Assembly: GCA_947346365.1 (NCBI GenBank) | Contig: CANAAV010000027.1 | Location: 1-33,728 of the forward strand | DNA from: an uncultured Flavonifractor sp. | GTDB lineage: Bacteria; Bacillota; Clostridia; Oscillospirales; Oscillospiraceae | Direction: 5' to 3' | Length of the DNA: 33,728 nucleotides | Shown: piece after piece, positions 5,097 through 22,306 of the stretch | How the letters are laid out: every line of letters starts with the position of its first letter | How positions within the stretch are numbered: the first letter of the stretch is position 1 | The notes under the pieces: generated by a model | The model's database searches: none | What the model saw: only the letters and a program-made list of their open reading frames with translations | Told to the model about the DNA's origin: nothing | Position numbers and translations under genes: made by a program

Positions 5097-6248
5097 TTAC
5101 AGGCCCAGCAGGTTCTGTTCGCTCTGGGGATCAAACAGGTGGATCATCTCCGGGCGGAAAGTAAACTTGACCTCCGCGCCGTAGGGGATGCCCGCCCGCT
5201 GCTCCGCCGGCAGGTCCGTGGTGGGGATGCGCAGGACCACGTCCTTGCCGCCGGCATTCACATGCAGGTAGACCTCGCTGCCCATCATTTCGGACACGTC
5301 CACCTTGCCGGTGATGATGTGCGCGCCGTCTTCCGCGGAGAACATACTGTGCTCAGGGCGCACGCCCACCGTCACATCCTTCGCGCCTATGCCCTTCGCC
5401 GCCAGGGCCTTGCTGGTCTCGGCAGTCAGGGGCACCACAGCGCCCGCCACGGCCACGGAGTAAGCATCGCCGTTCTTCTCCAGCTTGCCGTCAAAGAAGT
5501 TCATCTGAGGCGATCCGATGAAGCCCGCTACAAAGATGTTATTGGGGTGGTTAAACACCTCCTGGGGGGTGCCGATCTGCTGGATGAAGCCGTCCTTCAT
5601 AATGACGATGCGGTCGCCCAGGGTCATGGCCTCAGTCTGGTCGTGAGTCACATAGATAAAGGTGGTGTTGATGCGCTGGCGCAGCTTGATAATCTCAGCG
5701 CGCATCTGGTTGCGGAGCTTGGCGTCCAGGTTGGACAAAGGCTCATCCATCAGGAACACCTGAGGGTCCCGGACGATAGCGCGGCCGATGGCCACGCGCT
5801 GACGCTGACCGCCGGACAGCGCCTTAGGCTTGCGCTCCAAATACTGGGTGATGTCCAGGATCTCGGCAGCCTCGCGGACTTTCTTGTCGATCTCCTCTTT
5901 GGGCACCTTGCGCAGCTTCAGGGCAAAGGCCATGTTCTCATAGACGGTCATGTGGGGATAGAGCGCGTAGTTCTGGAAGACCATGGCAATGTCCCGGTCC
6001 TTGGGCTCCACGTCGTTCATGCGCTTGTCGCCGATGAGCAGGTCGCCATCGGAGATGTCCTCCAGGCCGGCCACCATCCGCAGGGTGGTAGACTTGCCGC
6101 AGCCGGAGGGCCCGACCAGCACGATGAACTCCTTGTCCGCGATCTCCAGATTGAAGTCGTGTACGGCGGTCACCTTGTTGTCGTAGATCTTTTTTACGTT
6201 CTTCAGGGTTACAGTTGCCATACTCTGAGCCGCAGAAACCGCGGCCAC
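5097..6248 (-). CDS. msmK: Carbohydrate ABC transporter ATPase (UgpC/MsmK type)
   Basis: The protein has 383 residues from GTG 6248. It is the ATP-hydrolysing subunit of a CUT1 sugar importer on the inner membrane face. Motifs: Walker [10 protein letters not shown], signature [15 protein letters not shown], Walker [17 protein letters not shown], switch His in YVTHDQTEA. The last 150 residues are the OB-fold/MOBE regulatory domain typical of MalK/MsmK. GTG 6248 is chosen because GAGGAG lies nine bases upstream; ATG 6221, whose product starts [11 protein letters not shown] as in relatives, has no ribosome site. It is the last gene of the sugar cluster, 157 bases after nagA. MsmK/MsmX ATPases often serve several sugar importers, so it need not be dedicated to the permeases here. 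Confidence 0.93.
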
Positions 6249-14604: not shown

Positions 14605-15777
14605 TCAATGGTGGAACAGGCGCACGCCCGTAAAGGCCATCACAATGCCGTGCTTATCGCAGGTGGCAATCACATGGTCGTCCCGGATGCTGCCGCCCGG
14701 CTGGGCGATATAGGCCACCCCGGACTTATGGGCCCGCTCCACATTGTCTCCAAAGGGAAAGAACGCGTCAGAGCCCAGGGTAACCCCCGACAGCTGTCCG
14801 ATCCACTCCCGCTTCTGCTCTGTGCTCAGCCCCTCCGGGCACAAAAGGAAGGTCCCCTTCCAAGCGCCGTTATTCAGCAGGTCGCCGGCCTCCTCGGACA
14901 GGTATACGTCAATGGCGTTGTCCCGGTCGGGGCGGCGAATTCCCTCCACAAAGGGCAGGGAGAGGACCTTGGGATGCTGGCGCAGCCACCAGTTGTCCGC
15001 CTTTTGTCCCGCCAGGCGGGTACAGTGAATGCGGCTTTGCTGTCCGGCCCCCACGCCGATGGTCATGCCGTCTTTGACATAGCACACGGAGTTGGATTGG
15101 GTGTATTTTAACGTAATGAGGGCCAGCAGCATGTCCCGCTTGGCGTCCTCCGGCAGAGCGGTGTTGCGCGTCACGATATTTTCAAGCAGCTCCTCCCGGA
15201 TGGCGAGATGATTGCGTCCCTGCTCAAAGGTAATCCCAAATACATCTTTATGCTCGATGGGCTTGGGTACATAGCCCGGGTCCATCTCCACCACATTATA
15301 TCCGCCCTTGCGCTTGGTCTTGAGGATTTCCAGCGCCTTCGCCGTATAGCCGGGGGCAATCACGCCGTCAGAGACCTCCAGGGCCAGATAGCGGGCCGTG
15401 GCCTCGTCGCACACGTCGGACAAAGCCGCCCAGTCTCCGTAAGAGCACAGCCGGTCGGCCCCCCTAGCCCGGACATAGGCCGAGGCGATCGGGGACAGCT
15501 CCAGCTCCCCCACAAAGTACATCTGCCGCTCTGTATCGCTCAGGCTCTTCGCCACAGCGGCTCCGGCAGGCGAGACATGCTTGAAGGACGCCGCCGCAGG
15601 CAGCCCCGTAGCGGCCTTCAGCTCCCGCACCAGTTGCCAGGCGTTCAGGGCGTCCAAAAAATTGATGTAGCCCGGCCGGCCGTTGAGCACCTTCAAGGGG
15701 AGGGCGCCCCGGTCCATGAAAATGCGGGCGGGCTTCTGGTTGGGGTTGCAGCCATACTTTAATTCCAGCTCAGTCAC
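14605..15777 (-). CDS. purH: Stand-alone AICAR transformylase (PurH C-terminal domain only)
   Basis: The protein has 390 residues, against about 510-530 for bifunctional PurH. It formylates AICAR with 10-formyl-tetrahydrofolate to FAICAR. The start, LKYGCNPNQKPARIF, corresponds to the beginning of the transformylase half of PurH (usual motif RYGENPHQ). The catalytic Lys-His pair is in SFKHVSPAG (K66, H67). The N-terminal IMP cyclohydrolase domain is absent and its activity is supplied by the upstream PurO-type gene. GTG at 15777 follows AAGGAG at nine bases and lies three bases after the purO stop. It is intact, not a truncation. Confidence 0.93.
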   Translation of the reverse strand: MTELELKYGCNPNQKPARIFMDRGALPLKVLNGRPGYINFLDALNAWQLVRELKAATGLPAAASFKHVSPAGAAVAKSLSDTERQMYFVGELELSPIASAYVRARGADRLCSYGDWAALSDVCDEATARYLALEVSDGVIAPGYTAKALEILKTKRKGGYNVVEMDPGYVPKPIEHKDVFGITFEQGRNHLAIREELLENIVTRNTALPEDAKRDMLLALITLKYTQSNSVCYVKDGMTIGVGAGQQSRIHCTRLAGQKADNWWLRQHPKVLSLPFVEGIRRPDRDNAIDVYLSEEAGDLLNNGAWKGTFLLCPEGLSTEQKREWIGQLSGVTLGSDAFFPFGDNVERAHKSGVAYIAQPGGSIRDDHVIATCDKHGIVMAFTGVRLFHH

Positions 15778-15780
15778 GCT

Positions 15781-16500
15781 TCAGCACTCCTTTTCCTCAT
15801 GCTTGTTCAGCAGCACACTCTCCCAGCATCCATTTTTCAAGTCGATATACCGCACAAACAGAGAAACCTTATTCTCTTCGTTGAGGCCGTCCCAGATGGA
15901 CGCGGCCAGGGTTTTAGGGTCGTTGGCAGCAATCTCTATCTGCACCGGCTCCCCTTCAAAGGAGGGCAGAGGATTTCCGTCTCCCATATAGGTGTGGATA
16001 AAATGTCCCTGTCCCGCCTTGGGATCCGAATAGGAGAAGAAGTACCGGCGGCAGGAGGAGGGATCGCCTCCCGCGCTTTTCAGGATGGACAGGGCATAGT
16101 CCCCCTTCTTCTTCATCAGGCCGGAAATACGGGGGGTATAGTTGGGCTCGTCCGGCTCAAAGGTGCGGCTACGCAGGGACTGGGCAAAGGTCAGCCCCGC
16201 CGCCAGACCCTCCCGCACGGTGTCGGTCTGATCGCCGTTGGTAACGATGGTGGAGGTGCCGAACACCCGCACCGGAGCGTAAATAATGAGGGATGGGTCG
16301 GTCATCTTCGAGGGATCGTAAGCCTGGGTGCGGATGCCGTCCGGGGTCTCTACAAAGACCCGGTTGCGGGAATTCTCGCTGCGCCCCATGATAAAATAGG
16401 CAATCACCGCCTTCTTCCCGTTGGGGGAGCGGCCCAGCACGATACCCCGTCCGGGATAGGGATTTTCCCGCAGGAGGGTGGGCAGATCGTGGGTTTTCAT
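15781..16500 (-). CDS. purO: PurO-type IMP cyclohydrolase
   Basis: About 239 residues from ATG 16500. It closes the ring of FAICAR to give IMP, the last step of the pathway. The sequence (NPYPGRGIVLGRSPNGKKAV near the N-terminus, IMGRSENSRNR, VTNGDQTDTV, YTPRISG) fits the archaeal-type IMP cyclohydrolase family (PurO), not the PurH N-terminal domain. ATG 16500 is preferred to 16521 because AAGGAG lies between them. The adjacent transformylase-only PurH and the absence of a PurH cyclohydrolase domain support the role. Family assignment is from recalled motifs. Confidence 0.87.
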   Translation of the reverse strand: MKTHDLPTLLRENPYPGRGIVLGRSPNGKKAVIAYFIMGRSENSRNRVFVETPDGIRTQAYDPSKMTDPSLIIYAPVRVFGTSTIVTNGDQTDTVREGLAAGLTFAQSLRSRTFEPDEPNYTPRISGLMKKKGDYALSILKSAGGDPSSCRRYFFSYSDPKAGQGHFIHTYMGDGNPLPSFEGEPVQIEIAANDPKTLAASIWDGLNEENKVSLFVRYIDLKNGCWESVLLNKHEEKEC

Positions 16501-16536
16501 CGGATAAACAACTCCTTTCACATGGGCCGGGGCCCC

Positions 16537-20655: not shown

Positions 20656-21150
20656 CTAAAATTCCTCCATCCGGATTTTTTGGTCTTTTTCCATCACTTC
20701 CTGCGCCATCTGCGCTTTAAACACGCCCAGCCGCCCGGCCAGCTCCGCATCAGACAGAGCCAGCATCTGCACCGATAAAATGGCGGCGTTGTCCGCCCCG
20801 TCCACCGCCACGCAGGCCACGGGAATGCCCTTTGGCATCTGCACCATGGACAGCAGGGAATCCAGCCCGCCCATCATGGAGGTTTTGATCGGCACGCCAA
20901 TGACGGGAAGCGTAGTATAGGCGGCCAGCACACCCGCCAAATGAGCGGCCTTGCCCGCCGCGGCGATGATGACCCCGAATCCCGCCTCCGCCGCGCCTGA
21001 CGCGAGCGCCTCCGCCGCGGCGGGGGTGCGGTGGGCGGAGATGATCCGCGTCTCAAAGGGGACCCCGAATTCCTTCAGGCGCTTCATGCACGGGCGCATA
21101 GTGTCCAGATCACTGTCAGAACCCATAACAATGGCAACTTTTTTGCTCAT
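20656..21150 (-). CDS. purE: N5-carboxyaminoimidazole ribonucleotide mutase
   Basis: The protein has 164 residues, typical for class I PurE. It moves the carboxyl group to make CAIR. Motifs: KVAIVMGSDSDLDTM, the active-site SAHRTPAAAEAL, and AAAGKAAHLAGVLA. ATG 21150 is chosen because GGAGG lies five bases upstream and homologues start here; the open frame extends upstream through the structured leader without a ribosome site. It is the first gene of the operon. No purK is present, so either CO2 is used non-enzymatically or PurK is elsewhere. Confidence 0.97.
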   Translation of the reverse strand: MSKKVAIVMGSDSDLDTMRPCMKRLKEFGVPFETRIISAHRTPAAAEALASGAAEAGFGVIIAAAGKAAHLAGVLAAYTTLPVIGVPIKTSMMGGLDSLLSMVQMPKGIPVACVAVDGADNAAILSVQMLALSDAELAGRLGVFKAQMAQEVMEKDQKIRMEEF

Positions 21151-21334
21151 AAGACCCTCCCTGTCGGCTGTATTTTTGTTGAACATGGAAAAAAACAAAT
21201 CAGGGTATCCTGTTATAAGGATACCCTGACCCAGCTTACCGGTAAAAAGCGGGCAGGAACGTACGGCGGCCGGACAGGGCCGCAGACCGTATAACAGATA
21301 CCGGCGCCATTCCCGCACCCCCTGCCCTTTTCTT
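21151..21334 (-). promoter_or_regulatory. Structured pur-operon leader with mutually exclusive terminator/antiterminator
   Basis: The minus-strand leader is about 184 bases. In order: an outer stem GGGCAGG/CCTGCCC (21321-21327 with 21251-21257) plus GTGCG/CGTAC; inside it a hairpin CCGGTATctgttATACGG and a hairpin GCGGCC-ctgtcc-GGCCGC; a U-run TTTTT just after the outer stem; then the terminator (21200-21229). Leader bases GGTATCTGTTATA (21290-21302) are complementary to TATAACAGGATACC (21204-21217) except for one bulged G. The second element is the loop plus 3' arm of the terminator, so the two structures exclude each other. I could not fit the sequence to the guanine, ZTP or PRPP consensus. 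See findings. Confidence 0.65.
21190..21229 (-). terminator. Intrinsic terminator inside the purE leader
   Basis: On the minus strand TCAGGGTATCCT pairs with AGGATACCCTGA over 12 bp with loop TATAAC, then TTTGTTTTTTT. It lies about 50 bases before the purE ATG. It is a transcription attenuator, not an operon end, because the promoter is upstream. Confidence 0.9.
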
Positions 21335-21340
21335 GACATC

Positions 21341-21369
21341 AATATATCGGATTTTTCGGGCTTTTGCAA
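21341..21369 (-). promoter_or_regulatory. Promoter of the pur operon
   Basis: On the minus strand TTGCAA (21364-21369), a 17-bp spacer and TATATT (21341-21346) fit sigma-A. The start is expected near 21334, about 184 bases before the purE ATG, just upstream of the structured leader. Confidence 0.75.
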
Positions 21370-21538
21370 GTGCAAACTGCGAAATTCGTATGCTTATACA
21401 ACTCCAGACGAAAAAAAGCAGGAAACGCTTGTGATAGTAATCACCGCTGGGAAGCCTCTCTCCGGCCACCGCCCTTCTGAACCGGCGGTCCGCCTCATAG
21501 AATAGAGCACAAGCCAAGCTGTTTAGGAGGATGTTTTT

Positions 21539-22306
21539 ATGAGGGTATTTCTGTTCAGGCGAAAGCTCCTTGCCGCCCTGGCCTGCGCCCTGGCGGCGGC
21601 GGCCATGTTTTATGCCGTTAACTATCCCGGCGCGGTCAGCGCCGCGGCCGCGGAACGGCAATTGCCCATCTACTGCGTTCAGCGGGACCAGAAGCTGGTG
21701 GCCATCTCCTTCGACGCCGCGTGGGGCAATGAGGACACCCAGCAGCTCATTGACATCATGGAAAAATACCAGGTCAAGGCCACTTTCTTTGTAGTGGGGG
21801 AGTGGGTAGACAAATACCCCGAGTCGGTGAAGGCCCTCCACGATGCCGGCCACGAGGTGATGAACCACTCCAACTCCCACGCCCACATGTCCCAGCTCTC
21901 CAGCGACGAAATCATCGCCGACGTGCAGGCCTGCAACGAAAAGATTGAGGCGGTCACCGGCGTATGCCCCACTCTGATCCGTCCCCCCTACGGGGAATAC
22001 GACGACCACGTGATTGCCGCCATCCGCTCCATGGGCATGGAGCCGATCCAGTGGGACGTGGACAGCCTGGATTGGAAAGACCTGTCCGCCGGGGACATCT
22101 CCCAGCGGGTGCTGTCCAAGGTGCAGCCGGGGTCCATCGTCCTCTTTCACAACGCCGCCCTCCACACGCCGGAGGCGCTGCCCGGAATCATTGAGAGCCT
22201 ATTACAGGAGGGCTATACCTTTGTGCCCATTTCAGAGATCATTCTGCCCGGAGAGTGCGGCGTAGACTACACCATCGACCACACCGGGCGGCAGCAGCCA
22301 GCGTAA
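21539..22306 (+). CDS. pdaB: Polysaccharide deacetylase, PdaB-like (sporulation)
   Basis: The protein has 255 residues. Residues 7-35 form an N-terminal membrane anchor or signal (LLAALACALAAAAMFYAVNY). The rest is a NodB-homology domain: metal-site SFDAAWGNED, the HEVMNHSNSHAH metal His pair, RPPYGEYDD and IVLFHN. The FDAAWGNED form of motif 1 is typical of PdaB, a spore-associated deacetylase. It would act outside the membrane on peptidoglycan or another polymer. AGGAGG lies eight bases before ATG 21539. The gene diverges from the pur operon. A CATAGAAT at 21496-21503 is loosely like a sporulation-sigma -10, but the -35 is unclear. Exact role in this organism is inferred. Confidence 0.88.
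   Translation: MRVFLFRRKLLAALACALAAAAMFYAVNYPGAVSAAAAERQLPIYCVQRDQKLVAISFDAAWGNEDTQQLIDIMEKYQVKATFFVVGEWVDKYPESVKALHDAGHEVMNHSNSHAHMSQLSSDEIIADVQACNEKIEAVTGVCPTLIRPPYGEYDDHVIAAIRSMGMEPIQWDVDSLDWKDLSAGDISQRVLSKVQPGSIVLFHNAALHTPEALPGIIESLLQEGYTFVPISEIILPGECGVDYTIDHTGRQQPA

Follow-up and report, generated by a model that had tools for sequence, protein, structure and literature searches.

The leader of purE in the 33,728-nt stretch of DNA analysed here (the window), which comes from an uncultured Flavonifractor sp., is probably a ribosome-controlled transcription attenuator that relies on a translated leader peptide. Among the explanations compared from sequence, this one is the most likely because an outer stem, which joins the start-site region of a leader upstream open reading frame (uORF) to its last codons, is supported among related leaders, and because none of the pairings tested competes with the terminator. 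The first-pass annotation had described a candidate unrecognised attenuator in front of the pur genes that would work by switching base pairs as a riboswitch does. The leader is indeed attenuator-like, but the switching of base pairs is unsupported, and the uORF at 21310–21236 had been overlooked.

All leader features lie on the minus strand. The sigma-A-type promoter noted earlier was found at 21369–21341 (TTGCAA, 17 nt, TATATT). It agrees with the consensus at 9 of 12 positions and is the single sigma-A-like promoter in 21100–21600, where 0.4 ± 0.6 is expected by chance; similar boxes are legible by eye, without a tally, in many relatives. The outer stem, referred to as P1, pairs GGGCAGG at 21327–21321 with CCTGCCC at 21257–21251, as the annotation had it. 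Its 5′ strand lies directly 5′ of the uORF ribosome-binding site and overlaps it, the Shine-Dalgarno-like GGGGG being recognised by sequence at 21322–21318. The uORF was assigned from the reading frame and a class test. It begins with the ATG at 21310, has 24 codons and a TAA ending at 21236 (MAPVSVIRSAALSGRRTFLPAFYR), and stops immediately 5′ of the terminator. Near its end is a five-codon motif, R-T-F-L-P (21265–21251), corresponding to G-x-x-[A/L]-[S/P] in relatives, and the last 7 nt of this motif are the 3′ strand of P1. The terminator scan returned a strong intrinsic hairpin of 16 pairs with a loop of 6 at 21233–21196, followed by seven U at 21195–21189, in agreement with the annotated terminator and U-run.

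Downstream of the terminator is purE (21150–20656; TIGR01162, 195.9 bits against a cut-off of 149.6), also as annotated. Seven genes follow it from 20654 down to 13332 on the same strand, namely purC, a PurF-like gene (TIGR01134, 177 bits, under the cut-off of 350), purM, purN, a PurO-like IMP cyclohydrolase, a PRK07106-type AICAR formyltransferase, and purD. From gene order and strand we infer that purE and these genes form one operon. The promoter scan of 21100–21600 found no second promoter between the terminator and purE. Within this gene set, the last purine steps are split (14605–16521, minus strand) between the PurO-like protein, which is archaeal-type and under its cut-off, and the PRK07106-type formyltransferase, rather than carried by a bifunctional PurH.

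The 145-nt leader with its terminator is more stable than all of 200 shuffles (z −3.6), and the 102-nt part without the terminator is not exceptional (z −0.82, 40 of 200 shuffles equally stable). Hence, the excess stability of this single sequence comes from the terminator. Two hairpins had been placed inside the outer stem; they appear in the minimum-energy fold, but that fold accounts for only about 5% of the ensemble. The ribosome-binding region of the uORF has a predicted mean pairing probability of 0.97.

Related leaders were collected from several sources. PurE was detected in 232 of 300 family genomes (E ≤ 1e-20), and upstream DNA was examined for 30 of these 232 and for 60 more. Further upstream DNA came from 80 named loci (the best 80 of 514; L101 has no upstream DNA), which include Flavonifractor, Pseudoflavonifractor, Intestinimonas, Butyricicoccus, and Agathobaculum, and from 20 loci of two genera. 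As some genomes are common to both collections, most counts are made on clusters, and near-duplicate leaders were merged for the stop-position, pairing, anchored-helix, and operator counts. Among 189 upstream regions, 85 distinct leaders pass a filter for a uORF that starts with ATG or TTG behind a ribosome-binding site and ends at a terminator; many purE genes within the family have no detected uORF. Nine of the 85 leaders, judged doubtful or frame-shifted (L111, L116, L117, L139, L140, L151, L153, L155, and L174), were omitted from the pairing tests onward, and L246 was additionally omitted from the pairing test on 43 clusters.

Sequence comparison of these leaders indicates that the uORF is real and probably translated. 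With the start picked by the ribosome-binding site alone and a stop window of −16 to +14 nt around the terminator start, 32 of the 38 clusters (L111, L139, and L174 retained) reach the first in-frame stop at the terminator, compared with 4.7 ± 2.0 in dinucleotide shuffles, in a test done on the same loci after the pattern had been seen. The 21 Agathobaculum-type leaders have uORFs of 27, 31, 34, or 36 codons with both ends conserved, thus their length changes in-frame. In the same group, 16 nucleotide changes are inferred for codons 3–7 (G-S-V-F-L), and these alter one amino acid. The Arg codon near the stop in 12 Flavonifractor-type leaders varies only synonymously (AGA, AGG, CGG). Over the whole uORF, no clear third-position excess was seen in two close clades, the changes at the three codon positions being 47/33/54 (p = 0.08) and 51/35/44 (p = 0.23). 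These flat counts mean that the constraint is largely at the RNA level or that the peptide is loosely constrained, and they weaken a purely peptide-level reading. No run of codons for one amino acid was seen by eye in the uORFs.

Toward the end of Agathobaculum-type uORFs, two CGGGCAUYSGUGCA-like copies occur in different reading frames and are able to pair with each other or with the upstream CACCGAU (L060, L071, L077–L079, L081–L085, L087, L090–L094, L096, L098, L100, L114, and L115). These repeats probably reflect a constraint on the RNA.

Many uORFs carry G-x-x-[A/L]-[S/P] near their end, often followed by Lys (AAA) or Asn; in the window, Arg takes the place of Gly. Among 38 clusters whose terminator core reads CAGG, 28 yielded the motif and 10 did not under a rule that considered only 18–30 nt before the core and demanded a start with GG or CG. 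The S/P codon begins on average 24.3 nt before the CAGG core (sd 2.6), and the stop codon has an sd of 3.5; because of the rule, the motif's sd is bounded and the comparison favours the motif. Counting every in-frame S/P codon 15–32 nt before the core, near-duplicates included, gives 24 at 24 nt and at most six at any other distance. In all 11 cases in which YCCAA lies 23–26 nt 5′ of the core, it shares the reading frame of the start codon. The distance from start to motif, by comparison, ranges from 15 to 21 codons after correction of two picks. The rule chose a codon or core other than the one seen by eye in L023, L169, and L228, and gave L233 an ATG start where a GTG start fits better.

Some uORFs end inside or past the terminator (L230, L237, L244, L247, and, by eye, L024), so the position of the stop codon cannot be what is kept constant, and this candidate for the fixed point was abandoned. 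As judged by eye, L169 and L198 stop two codons past the S/P codon, and the uORFs of L024 and L230 pass through the terminator; in all four the stop is displaced and the S/P codon is still about 24 nt from the terminator. In the Intestinimonas leaders L024/L075 and L230, the uORF reads across the terminator hairpin as far as a stop at the hairpin's 3′ end, again with the motif distance kept by eye.

Pairing between leader parts was assessed by comparing, for each leader, the pairing energy of its own segments with the energy obtained after exchanging segments among leaders. The terminator arms are strongly favoured over swapped partners (z −14.0 in 34 clusters, −16.5 in 43). The start-site region with the second half of the uORF also stands out, with z −4.9 in both 34 and 43 clusters. 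This is the P1 pairing, between the ribosome-binding region and the final uORF codons. With the helix anchored at the S/P codon, support is moderate (p = 0.0025, 24 clusters). The register of P1 differs between genera. The Agathobaculum stem, CACCGAU/AUCGGUG, is 93.5% paired, and covariation within that group does not exceed shuffles (in 177 of 500, at least as many pairs have both bases changed), there being too little variation. Ten other segment pairs, possible antiterminators included, are not favoured over swapped ones in 43 clusters. The antiterminator of the first-pass annotation, in which 21290–21302 pairs with 21204–21217, fails here. The complementarity is legible in the window, but it is not conserved, native and swapped segments being alike. 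Specifically, the first half of the uORF against the terminator loop plus 3′ arm gives z +0.34 in 34 clusters and +0.31 in 43, and for the window leader 17% of swapped partners match the native stability. The homologue comparison that the annotation had called for therefore supports its outer stem and not this pairing, which we rejected.

As no tested pairing partner could keep the terminator open, something probably sits on the RNA. A ribosome would suffice. Loaded while the leader is being transcribed, it would open P1, and on reaching the last codons or the stop it would cover the foot of the terminator, or run into the terminator where the two overlap. With the foot covered, polymerase would read into purE and the following genes, and the operon would be on. 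If no ribosome arrived in time, P1 would close, the start site would be hidden, the terminator would form, and the operon would be off. Since an early ribosome would open P1, which would otherwise close, each transcript would face one decision made by a single early ribosome.

The codon usage of the motif bears on whether the peptide itself could be the sensor, the nascent chain stalling its ribosome upon a purine-linked metabolite and so blocking the terminator. Codon usage was counted in 28 motifs, three of them entered by hand. The motif has Gly in 27 of 28 cases with a free third base (GGC 19, GGT 6, GGA 1, GGG 1), the GG or CG start having been preselected. The synonymous changes in the Flavonifractor-type Arg codon and in all but one instance in Agathobaculum codons 3–7 also favour a stalling peptide, as does the kept motif–terminator distance in L169 and L198, where the stop has moved. 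The motif may resemble the cores of SecM, SpeFL, or RAPP. Against a stalling peptide, G precedes the S/P codon in 27 of 28 motifs, which is explicable by pairing in P1, the motif Lys is AAA in 12 of 12, again indicating the RNA level, and the peptide is mostly variable. A free Gly third base beside a fixed G and AAA points to mixed constraints on RNA and peptide; the motif and codon-usage counts took only S/P codons with C or T in the third position, and selection by GG/CG and YCY limits what the codon usage can tell. We regard a stalling peptide as rather unlikely, from sequence comparison. The odds given to the explanations overlap, as this one and the kinetic one below are special cases of the ribosome-controlled attenuator.

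P1 and the inner helix could alternatively form an aptamer or protein site, binding to which shuts the ribosome-binding site of the uORF and leaves it untranslated, so that the terminator forms. This is the closest version of the earlier riboswitch idea. It agrees with the pairing tests on P1, with a ribosome-binding region that, in 35 of 41 leaders, is predicted to be more than half paired (a count that has no control set), and with the GYCC that is seemingly kept at the RNA level. P1 could, by these predictions, act as a structure that excludes the uORF start site. However, the 33 aligned leaders have no conserved unpaired core. Their nine invariant columns out of 171 comprise one in the ribosome-binding site, one in P1, and seven in the terminator and its tail, and the apical region varies in length and sequence. 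Nor does the leader match an Rfam class. The covariance models of Rfam 15 gave nothing at gathering score in the window leader and none at the loci of 15 relatives, which bears out the annotation's statement that no known class fits and rules out the known Rfam classes as its identity. The sole leader match, to a human lncRNA (E = 1.3, 14.1 bits against a gathering score of 40), was discarded. Binding at P1 thus appears unlikely as the switch.

A kinetic nucleotide sensor would need neither bound ligand nor stalling peptide. Low GTP or ATP would slow the polymerase, the ribosome would catch up, and the terminator would be blocked. By analogy, such a sensor could do without alternative pairing and requires just a translated uORF directly next to a terminator, matching the findings, but it leaves the motif and the outer stem unexplained. 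We consider it improbable to a similar degree.

The spread of the leader bears on the idea that the uORF is an independent small gene, coding for a functional peptide, ending in a terminator of its own, and exerting no control over purE. This idea accounts for the uORF, its stop, and the terminator. A leader model was built from 33 purE leaders, with terminator pairs only, and trained solely on purE leaders. Matches at E ≤ 0.01 occur in 117 of the 400 family genomes searched, and among those listed many weaker ones cover the terminator end alone. All 48 full-length matches with E < 1e-6 in these 400 genomes adjoin purE, as judged by match coordinates against purE positions, and 30 of 30 loci in one check contain purE. 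At least 18 of the 48 genomes supplied training sequences and are hence not independent finds; most matches in genera g40, g65, and g67 are independent of training. Of 25 model-found loci with purE, 20 have a uORF by the ATG/TTG filter and five have a GTG-start uORF, four of which carry the same motif; L245 and L246 show it only unclearly. For two weaker matches (L249 and L250), no purE lies within the DNA examined. The order-wide search found no strong match outside the family (18 of 394 genomes matched at E ≤ 1e-5), and the two out-of-family matches cover only model positions 85–145 and 90–145, the terminator end. The constant purE neighbourhood of the strong matches, the lack of a second promoter between terminator and purE in the scan, and the poor overall conservation of the peptide make an independent gene quite improbable.

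A direct riboswitch switching between terminator and antiterminator, as first proposed, has in its favour the 13-pair complementarity in the window sequence alone, but with that pairing not conserved (z +0.3), a terminator lacking a competing segment among those tested, and the uORF left unexplained, it is largely refuted by the homologue comparison and in our estimate very improbable.

The ribosome-controlled attenuator may not be the only control on this operon. An operator-like element, TTGTATAAGCATACGAA, lies 5′ of the pur promoter at 21385–21401 (minus strand) and is conserved. Its consensus TTGTNNAANCNTACNAAA occurs within two mismatches in 37 of 99 purE-upstream clusters against 0.5 expected in shuffles, the consensus having been drawn by eye from the very leaders counted. 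Carriers include L015, L019, L022, L027, L033, L064, and L066. The element also precedes purE in L030 and L031, in which neither a uORF nor a terminator was detected, so a further regulator may act besides the attenuator. In its own genome, the pur upstream element is the sole site without mismatch to TTGTNNAAGCNTACGAA. The other seven matches all have two mismatches, a reversed-pattern control also yields seven, and the neighbourhoods of four of the seven appear unrelated by eye; a regulon for the element was thus not seen in this genome.

Known purine regulators were sought as well. The guanine riboswitch RF00167 was not found in the leader nor in its own genome (86% complete), and a purine riboswitch is present in six of 30 genomes searched. 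A Bacillus subtilis-type PurR (TIGR01743) scores above the cut-off in none of 30 genomes, including the 86% complete genome of the window. Sub-cut-off matches occur in 25 of the 30 and are taken for other phosphoribosyltransferase-domain proteins. Elsewhere in the window, a malK-I RNA (RF03069, 6216–6393, minus strand, 128 bits against a gathering score of 60) is the only Rfam match at gathering score. It lies before a gene for a UgpC/MalK-type ABC transporter ATPase (5097–6248) and after nagA.

Leader-peptide attenuation is textbook control of amino-acid operons such as trp and his. In the UTP-sensing attenuator of Escherichia coli pyrBI, a slowed polymerase lets the ribosome catch up and block the terminator. 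The purE leader likewise precedes a nucleotide operon, and a ribosome near its terminator would block it without antiterminator pairing; it differs from pyrBI in the motif at a near-fixed distance and the stem hiding the Shine-Dalgarno sequence, and in concerning other nucleotides in another phylum. In B. subtilis, purE is controlled by the guanine riboswitch RF00167, an attenuator at the same gene that is absent from the window leader and its genome. SpeFL is an arrest-peptide attenuator, and attenuators of the TnaC/SpeFL type use Rho. The purE leader shares with them signs of peptide-level constraint and a stop codon adjoining the control point, whereas it ends in an intrinsic terminator rather than at Rho, and stalling is only putative.

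TnaC is reported to be an arrest-peptide attenuator (PMC8429421), and ilvB of Corynebacterium is reported to have a leader-peptide transcription attenuator (PMC10272879; PMC11109978). The purE leader shares with leader-peptide attenuators a short uORF, here predicted to be translated, just before the intrinsic terminator of a biosynthetic operon. The purE leader departs from the trp/his/ilvB type in that the product is a purine and not an amino acid, in having no codon run for a single amino acid and no conserved antiterminator, and in a stem that can hide the start site by pairing with the final codons of the same uORF. For fthC of Streptococcus, one paper describes a candidate uORF with hairpins and a terminator, for which its authors propose the fMet-tRNA level as signal (PMC11109978). 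That candidate resembles the purE leader in combining uORF, hairpins, and terminator at a one-carbon gene near purine synthesis, and differs in gene, genus, and structure. The same paper also includes a purS motif in Corynebacterium (PMC11109978), which differs from the purE leader. Limited literature searches, for which purE is a poor search term and outside which subscription papers, preprints, and supplements mostly fell, returned no leader-peptide or uORF control of purine genes.

Tentatively, and with more doubt than confidence, the ribosome-controlled attenuator may be a ribosome-based purine sensor, in which the nascent chain or a dependence on GTP or formyl-Met would read a purine-linked signal and the stem would admit one early ribosome. 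It would then take the role of the guanine riboswitch for purE in Flavonifractor, Intestinimonas, Agathobaculum, Butyricicoccus, and related bacteria. Structured leaders without an Rfam match should be inspected for uORFs before they are labelled riboswitches. If true, attenuation on a purine operon, with an architecture shared across this group of bacteria, would give ribosome-based sensing a new kind of input, and it would help explain how purine synthesis is controlled where a B. subtilis-type PurR stays under the cut-off, as it does in all 30 genomes searched.
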